NCBI GenBank assembly: GCA_029559475.1
Contig: JAKQBN010000061.1
Span: 1-64,000 of the forward strand
Origin: a bacterium
GTDB lineage: Bacteria > UBA4055
Direction of reading: 5' to 3'
DNA: 64,000 nucleotides
The translations under genes and the position numbers were made by a program. The notes under the pieces were generated by a model that had not been told where the DNA came from, searched no databases, and worked only from the letters and a program-made list of their open reading frames with translations. Shown piece by piece: positions 21,626-50,581 of this stretch; positions within the stretch are counted from its first letter, which is position 1, and each line of letters opens with the position of its first letter.

Positions 21626-22849
21626 TTAAATTGATTTCAACGCGCTGTCCAGACTTATACATTTGAGCGGGATTTCCGGATAAGCATTTGTAAAAGCTCT
21701 GTATTTCGATTCTGAAAAAGCAGACTTATCATATTTTACTTCGTAGGCATATAATTTACCTTTGTCGTTTTGCACTACAAAGTCAACTTCATTCTTATCA
21801 TTTGTGCGCCAGAATTTAGTGTTTTCGGGTCCGTACTTATCTTTCAGCATAAGGTAAACATAATTTTCAAGCAATTCGCCTTTATCCTGCCTCAATCCTA
21901 TCGGGCTGTAATTATTGATAAGCGCATTCCTTAATCCGAGATCCGCAAAGTACAGCTTAGGCATTTTTCTTAGTTCGGAAGACATATTATTGTAATACGG
22001 CCGCATCAGATGAATATGAAATGATTTGCGCATAACCCATATATATTGCGAAACGGTTTTATTATCCATAGCTATATCTGAAGTCAGACTGTTAACGTTA
22101 AGAAGTTCGCCGATCCTTGAAGCGAATAATTTCATAAGATTAAGATATTTTTCCTGAAAGCCGAGATTGCTTTCCGCCGCATCTTTTTTTGCGTAAGAAT
22201 CCGCTATTTCATTAAGTACCGATTTCTTTGCCTTCTCACTACCGCTCAGCACGACTTCCGGATAACCGCCCCATATAAGATAATCATATAAATACTCTTT
22301 TATTCTGTCTGAATATAAAAGCGGGATATCAGACGTATTCAGTACTTCTGCAAGCTCATTTTCGCCTTTAAATATAAGTGTTTCTTTTAGTGACATTGTC
22401 GGCAGTTCGTATATTCTTTTTCTTCCCGCCAGCGAATCTTTAAATTTACTGTCGATATAAAAACTTGATGACCCCGTTACGATAAATTTTATACCTTCGA
22501 GATAAGTGTCGTAATGGTATTTTAAAAAATTGGACGGATCTTTCAGATACTGTATCTCGTCAATTAAAACATATCTTCTTTCCTTACCTTCCGGTTTTGC
22601 TATAAGCTGCAGAAGATTTTTTGGATTTGCATCGAGGAGATTAAGTATTTCCCTGTCTTCAAGCGTAAAATAAAAAACTGACCGCTTGTTTTTTTTAAGG
22701 AATTCTGATGTTTGTTTTAAAAGAGTTGTTTTTCCTGTTTGCCTTGCACCGATGATCAGAGATATGTGTTTTTCAGGAATGTCTTTTTTTATGTCGTTTA
22801 GTAGCTGTCTTTCCAAAATTATTGCCCTTTTTCTATGTTTGCATTCCAA
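21626..22849 (-). CDS. AAA ATPase with DUF4143 domain
   Basis: This 407-residue protein has a Walker A (GARQTGKTTLL, residues of about 33-43), a Walker B (YVLIDEIQYL) and a sensor-like TGSS motif, followed by a C-terminal DUF4143 domain with a nuclease-like end (NEVDFVV...YAYEVKY). This AAA_14-DUF4143 family is widespread and functionally vague, often mobile. The assigned start is TTG at 22849; a second TTG at 22816 after AGGG is as plausible and fits the usual family start. It stands alone between two other units with no clear partner. Confidence 0.8.
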   Translation of the reverse strand: MECKHRKRAIILERQLLNDIKKDIPEKHISLIIGARQTGKTTLLKQTSEFLKKNKRSVFYFTLEDREILNLLDANPKNLLQLIAKPEGKERRYVLIDEIQYLKDPSNFLKYHYDTYLEGIKFIVTGSSSFYIDSKFKDSLAGRKRIYELPTMSLKETLIFKGENELAEVLNTSDIPLLYSDRIKEYLYDYLIWGGYPEVVLSGSEKAKKSVLNEIADSYAKKDAAESNLGFQEKYLNLMKLFASRIGELLNVNSLTSDIAMDNKTVSQYIWVMRKSFHIHLMRPYYNNMSSELRKMPKLYFADLGLRNALINNYSPIGLRQDKGELLENYVYLMLKDKYGPENTKFWRTNDKNEVDFVVQNDKGKLYAYEVKYDKSAFSESKYRAFTNAYPEIPLKCISLDSALKSI

Positions 22850-22902: not shown

Positions 22903-24291
22903 TTACAGTTTATTGAACCAGCTTTTTTTATCCTTTCTGACTTCAGATGAAGCGTAAACTTTATAATCGGTAAAAATGGTTGTCTGTCCGTCATAGACTG
23001 TTATGACCGAAGTGTTGTATGAAAGTTTGTCCTTGTTCGCGCCTGTGATTAGCTCGACTGATCTTTTCTTGTTCGGTTCGGTCAGCCCTTCAGCGATAAA
23101 TGCTTTTAATTTTTCCGTGCAGACGCCGATGTCGCCCGTTATCTCTATTACTGATTCGGTATCGTTTTTGGATATCTCGCCGTTGCTGAACATGAAATCA
23201 GTCCCGGTCAGCCTTATAATTTTAATTTTTTCTTTGTTCTGAAAAACTGCTTTGATAAGTTCGCTGACATTTAATGTCCTGTTGACAGGAATTGATTCTC
23301 CTTTATCGTTCTTTTCATAGAAAACCGCGTCGAGTGAGAAGTCCGCAGCCTCTATTCTAGCGCTTCCGCAGTCAAACTCAGGTTCTTCCTGTTTGATAGG
23401 TTTAACCGGCTCAGAGATTTTTTCTTTCTTAACTTCAGAATTTATTTTTTGATCAGCCTTCTTTTCAGACTTTATAACCTCTGCAATGATCTCTTTTTTC
23501 TCTTCGCTCTTAACTATAATTTCAGGTTTCTTTTCAGGTTCTTTTTTTACAGTCTCCTGCTTAACTGTTTCCTGTTTCTTTTCTTCTTTTACTAACGGCT
23601 CAGTTTTTATTTCGGCTGTAACAGGTACCACCGTGACAGGAGGATAATTTTCAAGAGTGAAAAACCAGCTTTTTGGATCTCTGAACGGATCGCTGCCTAT
23701 GTAGAAACGGTAATCAGGATATAATGAAAAATGATCGTCGAAAAAAGTCAGTTTGGATGAAAAATAAGCGTCGTTGTCGTGGCTTTTCCCCCATATCCAT
23801 TCGAGAGAGCTTTTCTGATTTGAAGTTAGGGCTGTATTCTCGATCAGCTCCCTGATCTTATCCTTTGATCTGTACGCAGGTTCTTTTTCCAAGTCTTTGA
23901 ACGAATTGTCGGCCAGTGATATTTTTTTCCCGTTTCCGTTGTCTATATCGAGCTTGTTTATCCTTAATATCTTCGCATTTGCTATCACATTCGATAAAGA
24001 ATCAAGTATTTCCGAGATCGTCATGTCCGTTCTGTAATCAAACTCATACTTAAATTTATTTCTTTTATAGACATCAACTCCGAACGGCCGGAATATCTTT
24101 TTAGATGATGATAATTTTTCAAGCAGAGATCTAAGTTCATCCCCTGCATAACGCGATCTGACAGAATCAAGCACGGAGCTTATCTTTAGCGAATCTGATG
24201 TTATTTCGTTGCTTTTCTTTAAATAATCGCCGTCCGACGCAAAAAGCCCGGCCAGCAAAAATAATATTATAGAAACAAGCGCTTTATTCAT
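22903..24291 (-). CDS. Exported protein with Lys/Glu-rich linker, unknown function
   Basis: This 462-residue protein has a signal peptide (MNKALVSIILFLLAGLFAS) and two globular parts joined by a low-complexity linker rich in K, E, V and P (about residues 225-320, repeats of the type KQETVKKEPEKK). The linker resembles those that span the periplasm in TonB-like proteins, but no TonB domain is recognised. The two ends share short similar elements (DPFRDPKSWFFTLE and RKDKKSWFNKL). I do not recognise the family. Confidence 0.55.
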   Translation of the reverse strand: MNKALVSIILFLLAGLFASDGDYLKKSNEITSDSLKISSVLDSVRSRYAGDELRSLLEKLSSSKKIFRPFGVDVYKRNKFKYEFDYRTDMTISEILDSLSNVIANAKILRINKLDIDNGNGKKISLADNSFKDLEKEPAYRSKDKIRELIENTALTSNQKSSLEWIWGKSHDNDAYFSSKLTFFDDHFSLYPDYRFYIGSDPFRDPKSWFFTLENYPPVTVVPVTAEIKTEPLVKEEKKQETVKQETVKKEPEKKPEIIVKSEEKKEIIAEVIKSEKKADQKINSEVKKEKISEPVKPIKQEEPEFDCGSARIEAADFSLDAVFYEKNDKGESIPVNRTLNVSELIKAVFQNKEKIKIIRLTGTDFMFSNGEISKNDTESVIEITGDIGVCTEKLKAFIAEGLTEPNKKRSVELITGANKDKLSYNTSVITVYDGQTTIFTDYKVYASSEVRKDKKSWFNKL

Positions 24292-24349: not shown

Positions 24350-24373
24350 TAAAAAAAGCGGGATAGACCCGCT
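24350..24373 (-). terminator. Intrinsic terminator of the HesB-like selenoprotein gene
   Basis: On the minus strand AGCGGG and CCCGCT form a 6-bp stem around TCTAT, followed by seven T residues. It lies five bases after the stop of the HesB-like gene. Confidence 0.8.
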
Positions 24374-24377
24374 AATT

Positions 24378-24686
24378 TTATGAGCACTCGTTCACATCTT
24401 TCAGCTTGAGTGAAAAGCCCGATCCATAAAACCTTTTTTCGTTATAATCGAGAGTAGCACCGCCGTATCTTTTTAAAAACTCCACGCTTCTCGGATCTAC
24501 CAAAAATTCGATTTCTGAAATCTTAAGCACGTTATCTTCCGCGCCTTTGTTATCCAAAGCTATACCTAGCCTCGGTCCGCCTCATCCGATACCGTCAAAA
24601 TAAACTCTTACGAACTGGTTTTTATTTTCCGGTTTCTCCAGAACTTCTTTCACTTTTACCGCCGCAGTATCTGTTACTATAAGCAT
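24378..24686 (-). CDS. HesB-like selenoprotein (UGA-encoded selenocysteine at residue 35)
   Basis: Read through one in-frame TGA (24582-24584), this frame gives a 102-residue IscA/HesB-fold protein starting at ATG 24686 (GAGGTG upstream) and ending at TAA 24378-24380. The TGA falls at the place of the first conserved cysteine of the fold, in GIG-(UGA)-GGPRLGIALD, which is the known signature of the HesB-like selenoprotein family. The frame continues with family-like sequence on both sides (ISEIEFLVDPRSVEFL, YGSGFSLKLKDVNECS). A hairpin with a GG loop begins 6 bases after the UGA, as bacterial SECIS elements do. HesB/IscA relatives bind iron-sulfur clusters or iron; the job of the seleno form is not established. 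A one-base change making a pseudogene is the alternative, but SECIS plus family position make that unlikely. Confidence 0.88.
24554..24584 (-). promoter_or_regulatory. Bacterial SECIS element with the UGA codon
   Basis: Downstream of the UGA (24582-24584) the minus strand can form a 9-bp stem, CCGAGGCTA with TATAGCTTTGG minus its first two bases, including two G-U pairs, closed by a GGUA loop (24563-24566). The apical loop starts 16 nucleotides after the UGA and has G in its first two positions, both matching the published rules for SelB-bound bacterial SECIS. The stem lies inside the coding frame. Confidence 0.8.
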
Positions 24687-24755
24687 TTCCACCTCAGGGA
24701 TTTTTTAATTTTACTAAATATAGTATCTTCTATATATCATAGTTGATGATTTTAA

Positions 24756-26030
24756 TCAGATTTTTTCAAATATTTCAACGGGATTTTCTACTAGAAGCAC
24801 TTTGTATCCTGTTTTTTCGCTCAGATCATCGGGAGTGATATCGTCTAAGAACTTTCCGTCGTAATTCAATATTGTTGAAGGGATGAGAAGCAGATCATCT
24901 CCGGATTTTGCTTTCCCCACAGATTTTATAATATCTTTCCCTCCCAAAAGCCCCGCTACAGTAACGCTACGACCGAAAAGCATATTCTCAGCTTTGATAA
25001 GTCTGACACTCAGATTTTTTACTTTTTTTAATTCAGGCATAACTATTCTATTCATTATTTCATAAAACAGCTCTCCTGTTACGATCGTAACAGATGCCTT
25101 TTTATTGATCTTCTCAGGGATCGCATCGACCGATTCAAGAAATCTTTCTATAAAATTCCTTGCCGGTCCCACTCCGTCCTCGTACTGAAGATAATCCTCG
25201 TAAAACTCCTCTTCAGGAAGTTCAATTCCTGATGTTATAAAAAATTCATCCGCCGGGAACACGAAGCCGGTACCGGTTTCTTTTTTATACTTCTTATTAA
25301 GTTTGAAGATAAGCTTTACCGTTTCTGCTGCTATCTCCTTTGTTACAGGCTCTATTTTTGGAAGGTTCTTTCTAAAAGACGTGAGGCCTACCGGAACAAC
25401 GGCCACCGATCTGACCATCGGATAAAACCCGCGCATTACCCGAATTGTATCTTCAAGTATCTTTCCGTCATTATATCCGGGACACATAACGATCTGGGTA
25501 TGAAGTTCTATACCGTTATCCGTCAGATACTTCATTTTTTCTAAAAGTTTATCGTCTTTCTTTATGCCGAGAAGTTTTTTTCTGACGTCGTCGTTCACTG
25601 AATGTACCGAAATATATAAAGGACTCAGCTTCATTTTAACAATTCTGTCGAGCTCTTTCGGCGTAATAGTTGTCAGCGTGAAATAATTACCGTAAAGGAA
25701 TGAGAATCTATAGTCCTCATCTTTAACATAAATTGTTTTGCGCATTCCTTTCGGGTTCTGACTTATGAAACAGAAAATGCAGTTGTTACCACAATGCCTG
25801 ATCTTTAGATCTTCTACTTCTATACCGTTGTTGCCGGCGGTTTCGAAAGCTGCTTTATAAGCCCCCGCCTTTCCCTCAACAACAAATGACAGTGGTTCGT
25901 CCGCACAGTAATAATTAAAATCAATGGCGTCTTCGATCTGTTTGCCGTTAACAGATATCAGGCTGTCGCCTTTTCTGATACCCGCCTTATAGGAAGGCGA
26001 GTTTTTTTCGACCGATACGATTTTTACCAT
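24756..26030 (-). CDS. PDZ-containing radical SAM protein (DUF512)
   Basis: This 424-residue protein has an N-terminal PDZ-like domain (SPSYKAGIRKGDSLISVNGKQI), then a cluster motif CGNNCIFCF (about residues 79-87) with C-x3-C-x2-C cysteines that would hold a 4Fe-4S cluster, a radical SAM-like barrel and a C-terminal DUF512 domain (TIVTGELFYEI). This known architecture is found in Firmicutes and related anaerobes, without an established reaction. It follows purL after six bases and precedes the selenoprotein gene. Confidence 0.85.
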   Translation of the reverse strand: MVKIVSVEKNSPSYKAGIRKGDSLISVNGKQIEDAIDFNYYCADEPLSFVVEGKAGAYKAAFETAGNNGIEVEDLKIRHCGNNCIFCFISQNPKGMRKTIYVKDEDYRFSFLYGNYFTLTTITPKELDRIVKMKLSPLYISVHSVNDDVRKKLLGIKKDDKLLEKMKYLTDNGIELHTQIVMCPGYNDGKILEDTIRVMRGFYPMVRSVAVVPVGLTSFRKNLPKIEPVTKEIAAETVKLIFKLNKKYKKETGTGFVFPADEFFITSGIELPEEEFYEDYLQYEDGVGPARNFIERFLESVDAIPEKINKKASVTIVTGELFYEIMNRIVMPELKKVKNLSVRLIKAENMLFGRSVTVAGLLGGKDIIKSVGKAKSGDDLLLIPSTILNYDGKFLDDITPDDLSEKTGYKVLLVENPVEIFEKI

Positions 26031-26036
26031 TAAACC

Positions 26037-28871
26037 CTACTTGAAATATTTCGTAAAGGGTGTTTTCCAGCAGTTCTCGATCTGGACCATGTCGATATCA
26101 ATTATCTTTCCTTTGAAATCATAGACTACTGCCGAGTATTTGGAAGTTGTAGTACCTATCTGTACGGCAAGTCCGGTTTCTACAAGCTCTTCGGCAGATT
26201 CGAGATCTTTCATTTCGACAACGAAAGCTGCAGGTACTTCCGCGAACAGGGTCTTAACCTTATCGTTCACGTGAATATTGAAACCTTTTTTCCCTCCGAT
26301 CGCCATTTCAGCCAGAGTTATAAGAGCTCCCCCTTCGCTAACGTCCGAAGCGGAAAGAATACTGCCGTTCTGTATGTTATTGTACATGAGTTCATAAACA
26401 TCTTTCGCTGTCTGCATTTTTATTTCGGGAACCCGGGTTCCGAGTTGTCCCAGCCTGTCGAAGAATATCGATCCTCCGAGATGTGCTGCACTGTAATCGC
26501 CGATAAGGAGGATAGGAGAACCTGATCTTTTGAGATCGGGCGAAACAGTCTTTCTCCAGTCATCAGTGACCGCTCTTGCAGAAACGCATACAACCGGCGG
26601 AATTTCTATAGTAACATCTTTCGATTTGTAGGTTGATGAAAGCGAATCTTTACCTGAAATGATAGGAGTTCCAAAGAATTTGCAGGCCTCACTCAATGCT
26701 ACGGCCGTCTGGTACAGGTCGGCAAGATTCGTTTCTGTCGGTTTCGGCCAGATGTGATTCTCTATCAAAAATATTCTTTTCGGGTCTCCGCCTAATGCTA
26801 TCACGTTGCTCATAGCTTCATAATATGCCCAAAGAGTTCCTTTATACGGATCGATCCTATTCAGGACGGGATTTAACCCGTGCCCGAAAATAAGAGCCGC
26901 GTCAGAATTCTTTAAAGGTTTCAGGATGCAACCGCCGGTCGGACCGTCGTTCTTCTTTCCGCATAAAGGACCTTCCACGCATGTTCCCTGCACTCCGTGG
27001 TCGTACTGTCGGATCACGGGCTCTTTTGAACAGACATTGAGATGGGAAATTATATCTTTAAAAGCTTCTGTATAATTTATCTCTTCTTCATAATATTCGC
27101 CGTCTTCAAGCCCTGTCTTCGGCTTTGTTGTAGCGGTAATTGTCTCAAGAGGCTGGCCGTCGTGCAGGAACTCCATGTCGAGATCACAGACGAGTTCGCC
27201 GCCGTCGTAAATGGTCAGCTTTTTTGTGTTCGTCGCCTCGCCGAGCACGAAGAATCCCACGTTATATTTTGCGCACACTTTTTTGATCATGTCAAGCTTT
27301 TCTTTCGGAACGGCGGCTACCATTCTTTCTTGCGATTCTGATATCCACTTTTCGAATGATGAAAGTCCGGGATATTTTAACGGGATATTGTCCAGATGAA
27401 CAACTGCGCCTGTCTTCTCTCCCATTTCTCCGACCGCTGATGAATATCCGCCCGCGCCGCAGTCTGTGAGCGCGGTGAATACATCCATATCGCGGAGTTC
27501 TAAAAGGCAGTCGAACATCCTTTTTTCTTCTATCGGATTACCGATCTGAACCGCACCGCTGTTCAGTGACGATGTCTTTTCCGTCATTTCGGCTGACGAG
27601 AAAGTCGCGCCGTGAATACCGTCCTTGCCTGTTTTTCCTCCGAAGGAAACAAAAAGGTCGCCTTTTCCACATTTACCCTTTTTGGCATACTTTATCGGAA
27701 TTATTCCGTCCGCGCCTACAAGCACTGTCGGTTTAGGTCCGAAATCCTTGTGAAAATGGAATGAACCGTTGTTCGTCGGTATCCCCATCCTGTTCCCGTA
27801 ATCCCTGACGCCTTCTATGACGCCTGTGAGGATCCTTCTCGGGTGAAGACAACCCGGGAACACCTCTTCCTGCTTCATGTCCGGATCGCCCAGACAGAAT
27901 ACGTCTATTGAAGAAATGTTTTTCGCTCCCTTGCCAGTACCGGCTATGTCCCTTAATACCCCGCCCGTTCCTGTCATTGCTCCGCCGTAAGGATCGAGCC
28001 CTGAAGGAGAATTATGGGTCTCGGCCTTGATACAGATGCCGTATTCCACCCCATCCGCTTCGGCAAATCTGAAAACGCCGGAATTATCCTCGAATTTCGA
28101 GACCACATCAGGATGCGCGATCGCTTTTTCGGTATCTTTCACAAGCCCTATGATCGATCTTTTTTCCGCGCCGTCTAATATCACTTTCGCCTTGAAGGTC
28201 TTATGCCCGCAATGCTCCGACCATGTCTGGGCTATAGTTTCCAGCTCGACGTCGTATGCGTCCCTTCCGAGTTTTTTATAATAATTCTGAATAGTTTTCA
28301 TCTCTTTAAGATTAAGGAAAAGCTTATAATCCGAAGCCTCCATCAGCTCTCTATCGGTCATTGTCCTTATAGGGATCATCTCCGTCTTTCTCGGTTTAAG
28401 GCTGACAGTAAGATCATCGGGCTTTTTTAATAGCTGCATCTGTATCTGGGCGTTCATTAATGACCTGTCCCTGATCGTCTCAAGCTGAGCAGCACTTAGA
28501 TCATCTTTAAAGTAATAAGTATATGATATCATCACCGCTTCATGAGCTATCTTTTTATCTTTAAGCTCCTCCGATATTGTTTCCGCTTCGGGATTCATGA
28601 CCCCCGGCTGGAACGATATTTCGATCTTCTTCGGATATTCGCTGTAGAATTCTCCGTTCACGATATATTTTTCCGTTATCGGACATGCAAGTATCTCCGA
28701 CGCTATCCTTCCGGCATCTTCGGCCGGGATCCCCTGAACGTAAAAGTTCTTGACTATCTTCATGTCTTTGATCTTTATATTGAGAAATTCCCTGATCTGA
28801 TGCGATATGTGCTTTTCTTTAGGATCGCTTACAGCAGGGATCACCGAGATTTTCTGAATGTTTGCCGACAT
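26037..28871 (-). CDS. purL: Phosphoribosylformylglycinamidine synthase, PurS-PurL fusion type
   Basis: The start at 28871 is preferred over 28928 because GAGGT lies just upstream and family-like sequence begins there. The 944-residue enzyme makes FGAM from FGAR in purine synthesis. The N-terminal 180 residues hold PurS-like segments (VIPAVSDPKEKHISHQIREFL), and the remainder is the AIRS-fold synthetase (WSEHCGHKTFKAK; KAETHNSPSGLDPYGGAMTGTGG; DCGAGGYSSAVGEMGE). It lacks the C-terminal glutaminase of the large proteobacterial enzyme, so a separate PurQ is needed; none is in the window. It is followed closely by the DUF512 gene. Confidence 0.92.
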   Translation of the reverse strand: MSANIQKISVIPAVSDPKEKHISHQIREFLNIKIKDMKIVKNFYVQGIPAEDAGRIASEILACPITEKYIVNGEFYSEYPKKIEISFQPGVMNPEAETISEELKDKKIAHEAVMISYTYYFKDDLSAAQLETIRDRSLMNAQIQMQLLKKPDDLTVSLKPRKTEMIPIRTMTDRELMEASDYKLFLNLKEMKTIQNYYKKLGRDAYDVELETIAQTWSEHCGHKTFKAKVILDGAEKRSIIGLVKDTEKAIAHPDVVSKFEDNSGVFRFAEADGVEYGICIKAETHNSPSGLDPYGGAMTGTGGVLRDIAGTGKGAKNISSIDVFCLGDPDMKQEEVFPGCLHPRRILTGVIEGVRDYGNRMGIPTNNGSFHFHKDFGPKPTVLVGADGIIPIKYAKKGKCGKGDLFVSFGGKTGKDGIHGATFSSAEMTEKTSSLNSGAVQIGNPIEEKRMFDCLLELRDMDVFTALTDCGAGGYSSAVGEMGEKTGAVVHLDNIPLKYPGLSSFEKWISESQERMVAAVPKEKLDMIKKVCAKYNVGFFVLGEATNTKKLTIYDGGELVCDLDMEFLHDGQPLETITATTKPKTGLEDGEYYEEEINYTEAFKDIISHLNVCSKEPVIRQYDHGVQGTCVEGPLCGKKNDGPTGGCILKPLKNSDAALIFGHGLNPVLNRIDPYKGTLWAYYEAMSNVIALGGDPKRIFLIENHIWPKPTETNLADLYQTAVALSEACKFFGTPIISGKDSLSSTYKSKDVTIEIPPVVCVSARAVTDDWRKTVSPDLKRSGSPILLIGDYSAAHLGGSIFFDRLGQLGTRVPEIKMQTAKDVYELMYNNIQNGSILSASDVSEGGALITLAEMAIGGKKGFNIHVNDKVKTLFAEVPAAFVVEMKDLESAEELVETGLAVQIGTTTSKYSAVVYDFKGKIIDIDMVQIENCWKTPFTKYFK

Positions 28872-28977
28872 TATGACCTCACATAAAAAATAAGCCCTAA
28901 ATATACTGTTTTGCCGGATTCTTTGCAAGTTTATAAATAATTAAAAAATACCTTATTATTAATTATAATAATTTCTG

Positions 28978-34487: not shown

Positions 34488-34630
34488 TTGACCCGGTGCA
34501 CCTGTATATTATTATTTATAGTATCTGTATAGAAAAAATAAAAATTAAGATATGAATGAACCATATACTTTTAATTTTCACAGATCAGGACAGTTTTTTT
34601 ACCAGGTTGCATCTGTATCTTGTATTTATG
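34488..34630 (+). promoter_or_regulatory. Two-copy direct repeat, candidate promoter/operator of the island
   Basis: Two copies of a roughly 30-base motif lie 110 bases apart: 34491-34520 and 34601-34630. Shared bases are ACC-n-GGT-n-GCA-n-CTGTAT-n-TT, then TATTTAT. The first copy overlaps a possible -35 box (TTGACC at 34488-34493). They occupy the gap between the WYL regulator and the zinc-ribbon gene, so they may be binding sites of that regulator. This is inference from position and repetition. Confidence 0.4.
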
Positions 34631-34652
34631 TAATCCGGTATGAGGTGTAATT

Positions 34653-34886
34653 ATGGAAAAGATCAACTGTAAGAAATGCAGCGCAACAATAGCTACTCCC
34701 GGCTATGCGAGTAGGACTTTTGCAGGAACTTATATGACCTGCTCCCAATGCGGTACTGAACTCAAAAAAGTTTCATATATTCTAAAGTTAAGTGAAGTTC
34801 AGGTCGCATTCGTATGTAAGAAATGCATCGCCATAATCAAAAAAAGGACCGGGCTCAAATGTCCGATATGCGGCACTATAAATTGA
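34653..34886 (+). CDS. Small double zinc-ribbon protein
   Basis: This 77-residue protein has four CxxC pairs: CKKC, CSQC, CKKC and CPIC. Together they would hold two zinc ions in a ribbon pair. There is no membrane segment. It starts the small-protein trio after the repeated motif, with GAGG about 6 bases before the ATG. Nothing else about its function can be read. Confidence 0.7.
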   Translation: MEKINCKKCSATIATPGYASRTFAGTYMTCSQCGTELKKVSYILKLSEVQVAFVCKKCIAIIKKRTGLKCPICGTIN

Positions 34887-34910
34887 TATAAAGAAAATAA
34901 GGAGGTGAAA

Positions 34911-35138
34911 ATGCAGAATGAAAAAGAAGCGGCTTACTGGAAAGCTGTTCAGAAATGGGCGGAAAAAGCGCAGACGCTTGTGCAGTATCAGCAGAAAAAC
35001 ATGAAATGGTTCCTTTCGCCCGAGATAGTTCAGTGGTGCACGCCGAGCTACGAAAGTGAAGTGTCACAGCTTGAAAGAGAGGTCGAAAGACTCGAAAAAG
35101 AAGCTGACAGACTGGAAGTAGAAGCAGGATTAAACTAA
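34911..35138 (+). CDS. Small coiled-coil protein
   Basis: This 75-residue protein starts at ATG 34911, where GGAGG stands five bases away; an upstream GTG at 34905 is unlikely. The C-terminal half is a strong heptad coiled coil (SQLEREVERLEKEADRLEVEAG). The N-terminal half is rich in W, K and Q. It lies between a zinc-ribbon and a membrane-anchored acidic protein in one unit. Confidence 0.65.
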   Translation: MQNEKEAAYWKAVQKWAEKAQTLVQYQQKNMKWFLSPEIVQWCTPSYESEVSQLEREVERLEKEADRLEVEAGLN

Positions 35139-50152: not shown

Positions 50153-50265
50153 CATAACTTCATCTCAAAACGGACCCTGCCTCATCAGTCTGATCGCTTG
50201 TATATGGCTGATTTCGAACCTGCAGGTAAAGATGTGTAACGGGATCCGTTTTTATATGAATTATG
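50153..50265. repeat. Diverged 113-base intergenic element, copy B
   Basis: Begins CATAACTT and ends GAATTATG, like copy A. An inner inverted repeat (AAAACGGA-CCC at 50167-50177 with GGGA-TCCGTTTT at 50241-50252) is followed by a T run, so it could fold into a stem around 63 bases. The remaining gap 50266-50581 up to the M6 protease shows no gene I can support; it is AT-rich and should hold that gene's promoter (TATATT at 50533-50538, no good -35). Confidence 0.4.
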
Positions 50266-50581
50266 TTTCGCTGCATAAACCATGGAGGTTATAAGTCGAG
50301 TCATATATTTTGAGAAGCAGGAACGCACCCAAGCGTTGTCTTTTGAACGAGCCATATTTCCGGAGAAAAAATATCAAAGATCGTGCCGATACGTGATTTT
50401 TTCAAATTATTTCATAATTAATGCAGACATTTTTTTGGAGGATATCATGGCGAGTGATATAAATTTCCGATATATGACAAATGTTGTTTTTATTTACCGA
50501 AATATTTATTAGATTTTTACGGAAAACTCTATTATATTGTAAAGTTTTCAAAATTGAAATAATAAATTAAAGGATAAAAAG

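Follow-up and report, generated by a model that had tools for sequence, protein, structure and literature searches.

A divergent HesB-like selenoprotein gene with an in-frame UGA in a poorly sampled bacterial phylum

The window, i.e., the whole stretch of 64,000 nucleotides that was analyzed, carries on its minus strand a hesB-like selenoprotein gene (24378..24686) of 102 codons, from an ATG (24686-24684) to a TAA (24380-24378). The product read from 24686 to 24378 is MLIVTDTAAVKVKEVLEKPENKNQFVRVYFDGIG-U-GGPRLGIALDNKG...KDVNECS, and its sole interruption is a UGA at codon 35 (24582..24584, minus strand), read as selenocysteine (Sec) within the motif GIG-U-GGP. The sequence ahead of the ATG contains a Shine-Dalgarno region, TGAGGTGGAA (24687..24700, minus strand), with the Shine-Dalgarno-like stretch TGAGGTGG directly 5' of the start codon. 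An intrinsic terminator, consisting of a stem-loop and then a T run, is found at 24357..24373 (minus strand). The initial annotation had described a continuous 102-codon frame with one TGA, a start, a ribosome-binding site and a terminator; all these coordinates hold, and only the strand, which is minus, was missing from it. Read on the plus strand, 24378-24686 has several stops and was rejected as a coding frame.

The gene is embedded in a series of genes of the same orientation. Upstream of it lie a gene for a TIGR03279-like radical SAM protein (24756..26030, minus strand) and one whose product we take, judging by its sequence, to be PurL-like (26037..28928, minus strand; synteny tested). 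Its downstream neighbor is an ORF of 462 aa that is not assigned to a family (22903..24291, minus strand). Two genes downstream there is a 407-aa ATPase-like ORF (21626-22849, minus strand) with a marginal NCBIfam match to Avs5.

To place the gene in its lineage, we used a sample of 13 genomes of the phylum, all from one family; searches at the family and at the phylum level give the same 13. The homologue search found the gene in 10 of them, in 11 copies with a UGA. The UGA is at codon 35 in every one of these copies, one per matched frame, and the ten copies besides that of the window share 43-79% identity with the window protein. In pairwise comparisons of the phylum copies, dN is far below dS both 5' and 3' of the UGA (dS being saturated in several pairs), which means that the frame beyond the UGA is under purifying selection. 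Frameshifts in sister species, which according to the initial annotation would have spoken against the gene, were not found: the copies have the same single UGA and keep the frame. The gene order PurL, TIGR03279-like radical SAM, HesB(Sec) and 462-aa ORF is also kept around 9 of the 11 UGA copies, while the block formed by the other three genes is absent within around 1.5 kb of the copies of G004 and G006. Separately, HesB-like genes with Cys and with Sec adjoin in tandem in G006 (L029/L040, G006:C70) and in G037 (L030/L041, G037:C52), two genomes of different families.

An in-frame stop seen in one assembly can be an error, and the UGA might thus be a nonsense mutation or a miscall in an ordinary HesB gene. 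No result obtained here favors this explanation. The same codon is a UGA in 11 copies from 10 assemblies, the region downstream of it evolves with dN far below dS, and the flanking signals (Shine-Dalgarno and terminator) are intact. We therefore rejected the pseudogene or miscall, whose probability we regard as negligible. Judging from the sequences, the UGA at codon 35 is functional, given its conserved position in the 11 copies and the purifying selection downstream.

A bacterial SECIS hairpin with a 9-bp stem and a GGUA loop follows the UGA (24554..24575, minus strand). Its stem pairs 24575-24567 with 24562-24554, including G-U, and leaves the loop at 24566-24563. The hairpin begins 6 nt after the UGA, and the first base of the loop is the 16th past it, so that the element had been located correctly in the initial annotation, which described a 9-bp GGUA hairpin 6 bases past the UGA with the loop 16 bases away. 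In the bSECIS model, the loop has 3-9 nt with a G in the first two positions, the stem has 4-16 bp, the spacing is 16-37 nt, and the MFE is at most -7.5 kcal/mol (PMC13188914). The hairpin satisfies these published constraints, as the initial annotation had suggested verifying, with a loop of 4, a stem of 9, GG, an MFE of -12 to -14 kcal/mol, and a spacing of 16 that is exactly the lower limit. Its fold energy of -13.8 kcal/mol is modestly unusual, with a z of -1.66 and a P of 0.014 under synonymous recoding, and is by itself a weak signal. All six upper-stem pairs together with the GG loop arise in around 0.9% of synonymous recodings, and they are present in 7 of the 8 main-group orthologues.

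The covariation test across copies revealed no compensatory changes on both sides of the stem, because the hairpins are either near-identical or, in G005/G011, folded differently. Constraint on the hairpin was shown through codon conservation, in place of covariation. In all 8 copies with the canonical hairpin, the apical stem and the loop are made by the same codons for Arg39-Leu40-Gly41, AGG CTA GGT, even though CTA is the rarest Leu codon (4.5% of the Leu codons in the long ORFs of the window). Outside the hairpin, by comparison, 3-4 different codons occur in most of the other columns with an invariant Gly, Ala, or Leu. The G005/G011 clade (L023, L025, L039) has no GGUA hairpin after the UGA, which suggests a changed SECIS, since an element at this place must differ where that hairpin is not kept. 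Reading by eye, we found there a possible alternative short stem, GAC-UGGGC-GUC, with a G in the loop.

HesB-like proteins are listed as a selenoprotein family with the motif UxGP and the model TIGR01911 (PMC13188914), and 11 of them were counted in bacteria in 2006 (PMC1794560). The window protein matches the profiles NF038090, TIGR01911, ErpA, and TIGR00049, all under the curated cut-offs. In NCBIfam, it is closest to the two HesB selenoprotein models, with scores of 51.9 bits for TIGR01911 (cut-off 66.35) and 52.3 for NF038090 (cut-off 85). The TIGR01911 cut-off, which is an annotation threshold and not a biological feature, is exceeded in none of the 13 family genomes. The AlphaFold model has a pLDDT of 88, and its top Foldseek matches are IscA and SufA, with HI1723 also matched; hence, the full 102-aa product is predicted to have the IscA/HesB fold. 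Searching PDB with the family profile gave HI1723 (2apn) and E. coli IscA as matches, and in these alignments the conserved Cys falls in the UGA column. Cys homologues align their Cys at the same position, which bears out the earlier claim that the UGA occupies the conserved cysteine site of the IscA/HesB fold. Most of these Cys homologues have GGC[SAK]G[FLY] and a CGCG C-terminus. The UGA-carrying homologues from outside the phylum that we read have the UGA at the same site, nearly always as G-x-G-U-[GS]-G-P. The search for canonical A-type carriers over the PF01521 cut-off found none in the genome, and this same search also misses the hesB-like selenoprotein gene.

The features that define TIGR01911 members, i.e., an in-frame UGA where the HesB domain has its conserved Cys, the UxGP motif, and the IscA/HesB fold, are all found here. 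The proteins of the phylum might instead form a separate subfamily of Sec-containing A-type carriers with the same fold and UxGP site, without being HesB-like selenoproteins proper. We consider this unlikely. It would fit the scores, which fall short of the TIGR01911 cut-off in all 13 family genomes and of both HesB-Sec cut-offs for the window protein, and the C-terminus, where the canonical CGC is missing. Against it, the two selenoprotein models are still the closest ones, the UxGP motif fits the published definition, and in the tree the phylum proteins group with most other Sec HesB proteins, albeit with weak support and long branches. The assignment made by the initial annotation is thus supported, with the nuance that a protein under both NCBIfam cut-offs is a divergent member: the gene is a new, divergent member of a selenoprotein family that had been recognized by 2006 at the latest.

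Decoding of the UGA as Sec depends on machinery that the initial annotation proposed to search for. We found selB over the cut-off, selA, selD, and a tRNA-Sec with a UCA anticodon in the same assembly, showing that the organism has the Sec machinery. In the selD gene (L009, G000:C53:11123-12043), the N-terminal active-site region (RAAG-U-AGK) includes an in-frame TGA, which makes selD a second selenoprotein gene in the genome, in line with the earlier guess that there might be others. There are two selA genes (L007 and L008, in G000:C40 and C67), closely similar but non-identical and both at contig starts, and they stem from a duplication or from a second strain that is part of the assembly. 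The tRNA-Sec locus (L011 1501-1596, minus strand, i.e., G000:C52:28910-29005) has unpaired positions in the acceptor stem, which we read as U5-C68, U6-U67, and position 8. Because of them, it is missed by ARAGORN, whereas Rfam detects it. Its sequence is the same in G001 and G002; the U6-U67 mismatch also occurs in G005, G007, G008, G011, and G012, and positions 5 and 6 are paired in G004 and G006.

Sec decoding is nearly universal in the sampled genomes of the phylum: 11 of the 13 have SelB over the cut-off, and 10 have a tRNA-Sec that exceeds the gathering score. One genome (G008) has SelB and tRNA-Sec and lacks a HesB match; presumably, other selenoproteins keep the machinery there. Further selenoproteins of the window's genome were sought by family searches only: the PF02662 search found no MvhD-type selenoprotein, and the HdrA model gave only weak matches below the cut-off, none with a UGA. 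Other UGA-readthrough frames in the window, at 34620-35138, 50261-50551, and 662-931, are candidates only.

A global reassignment of UGA (e.g., to Trp or Gly) would explain the internal codon with no need for selenocysteine, and UGA is indeed the rarest stop in the window. Yet it still terminates 4 of the 36 long ORFs, the other in-frame UGA that was found sits in selD, the full Sec machinery is in the assembly, and homologues carry Cys at the UGA column. Reassignment was rejected on these grounds and seems to us extremely improbable. We are thus highly confident that the frame is a genuine gene for a small Fe-S-carrier-like protein whose internal UGA is decoded as selenocysteine.

From these parts and the established biology of Sec in bacteria, we infer a SelB-dependent insertion at codon 35: SelB carrying Sec-tRNA-Sec would bind the hairpin just 3' of the UGA, and Sec would be inserted in place of termination. 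Sec35 would then take the place that the first ligand has in A-type Fe-S carriers. The canonical set of three Cys ligands with the C-terminal CGC is absent, and the window protein has only Sec35 and C101, a single C-terminal Cys that would stand for the CGC motif. Most likely, Sec35 and the C-terminal Cys serve to handle a metal or Fe-S cluster or to carry out thiol/selenol redox. The conserved neighborhood provides a handle on the function of HesB-like selenoproteins. A more specific and rather speculative view is that the phylum clade is a distinct Sec-dependent subfamily whose two-ligand site (Sec35 and one C-terminal Cys) would serve the neighboring TIGR03279-like radical SAM enzyme, not general Fe-S delivery.

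These results firmly confirm that a little-studied lineage carries an ordinary gene of a type described before, and a poorly sampled phylum is thereby added to the range of a known selenoprotein family. Standard annotation truncates such genes after 34 residues across the whole lineage, and the curated HMM cut-offs also miss those of the phylum. Like the HesB-like selenoproteins of TIGR01911 (HesB_rel_seleno) and NF038090 (IscA_HesB_Se), the phylum proteins have the small IscA/HesB fold, Sec at the first conserved Cys, UxGP, and a Cys near the C-terminus. They differ from them in having diverged below the curated cut-offs, in a C-terminus that in most copies is shortened and has a single Cys, and in the conserved PurL/radical SAM neighborhood of their genes. 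With IscA, SufA, and ErpA (PF01521) they share the fold and the position of the first ligand Cys, but they have Sec for Cys, UxGP for CSG[F/L], and no C-terminal CGC.
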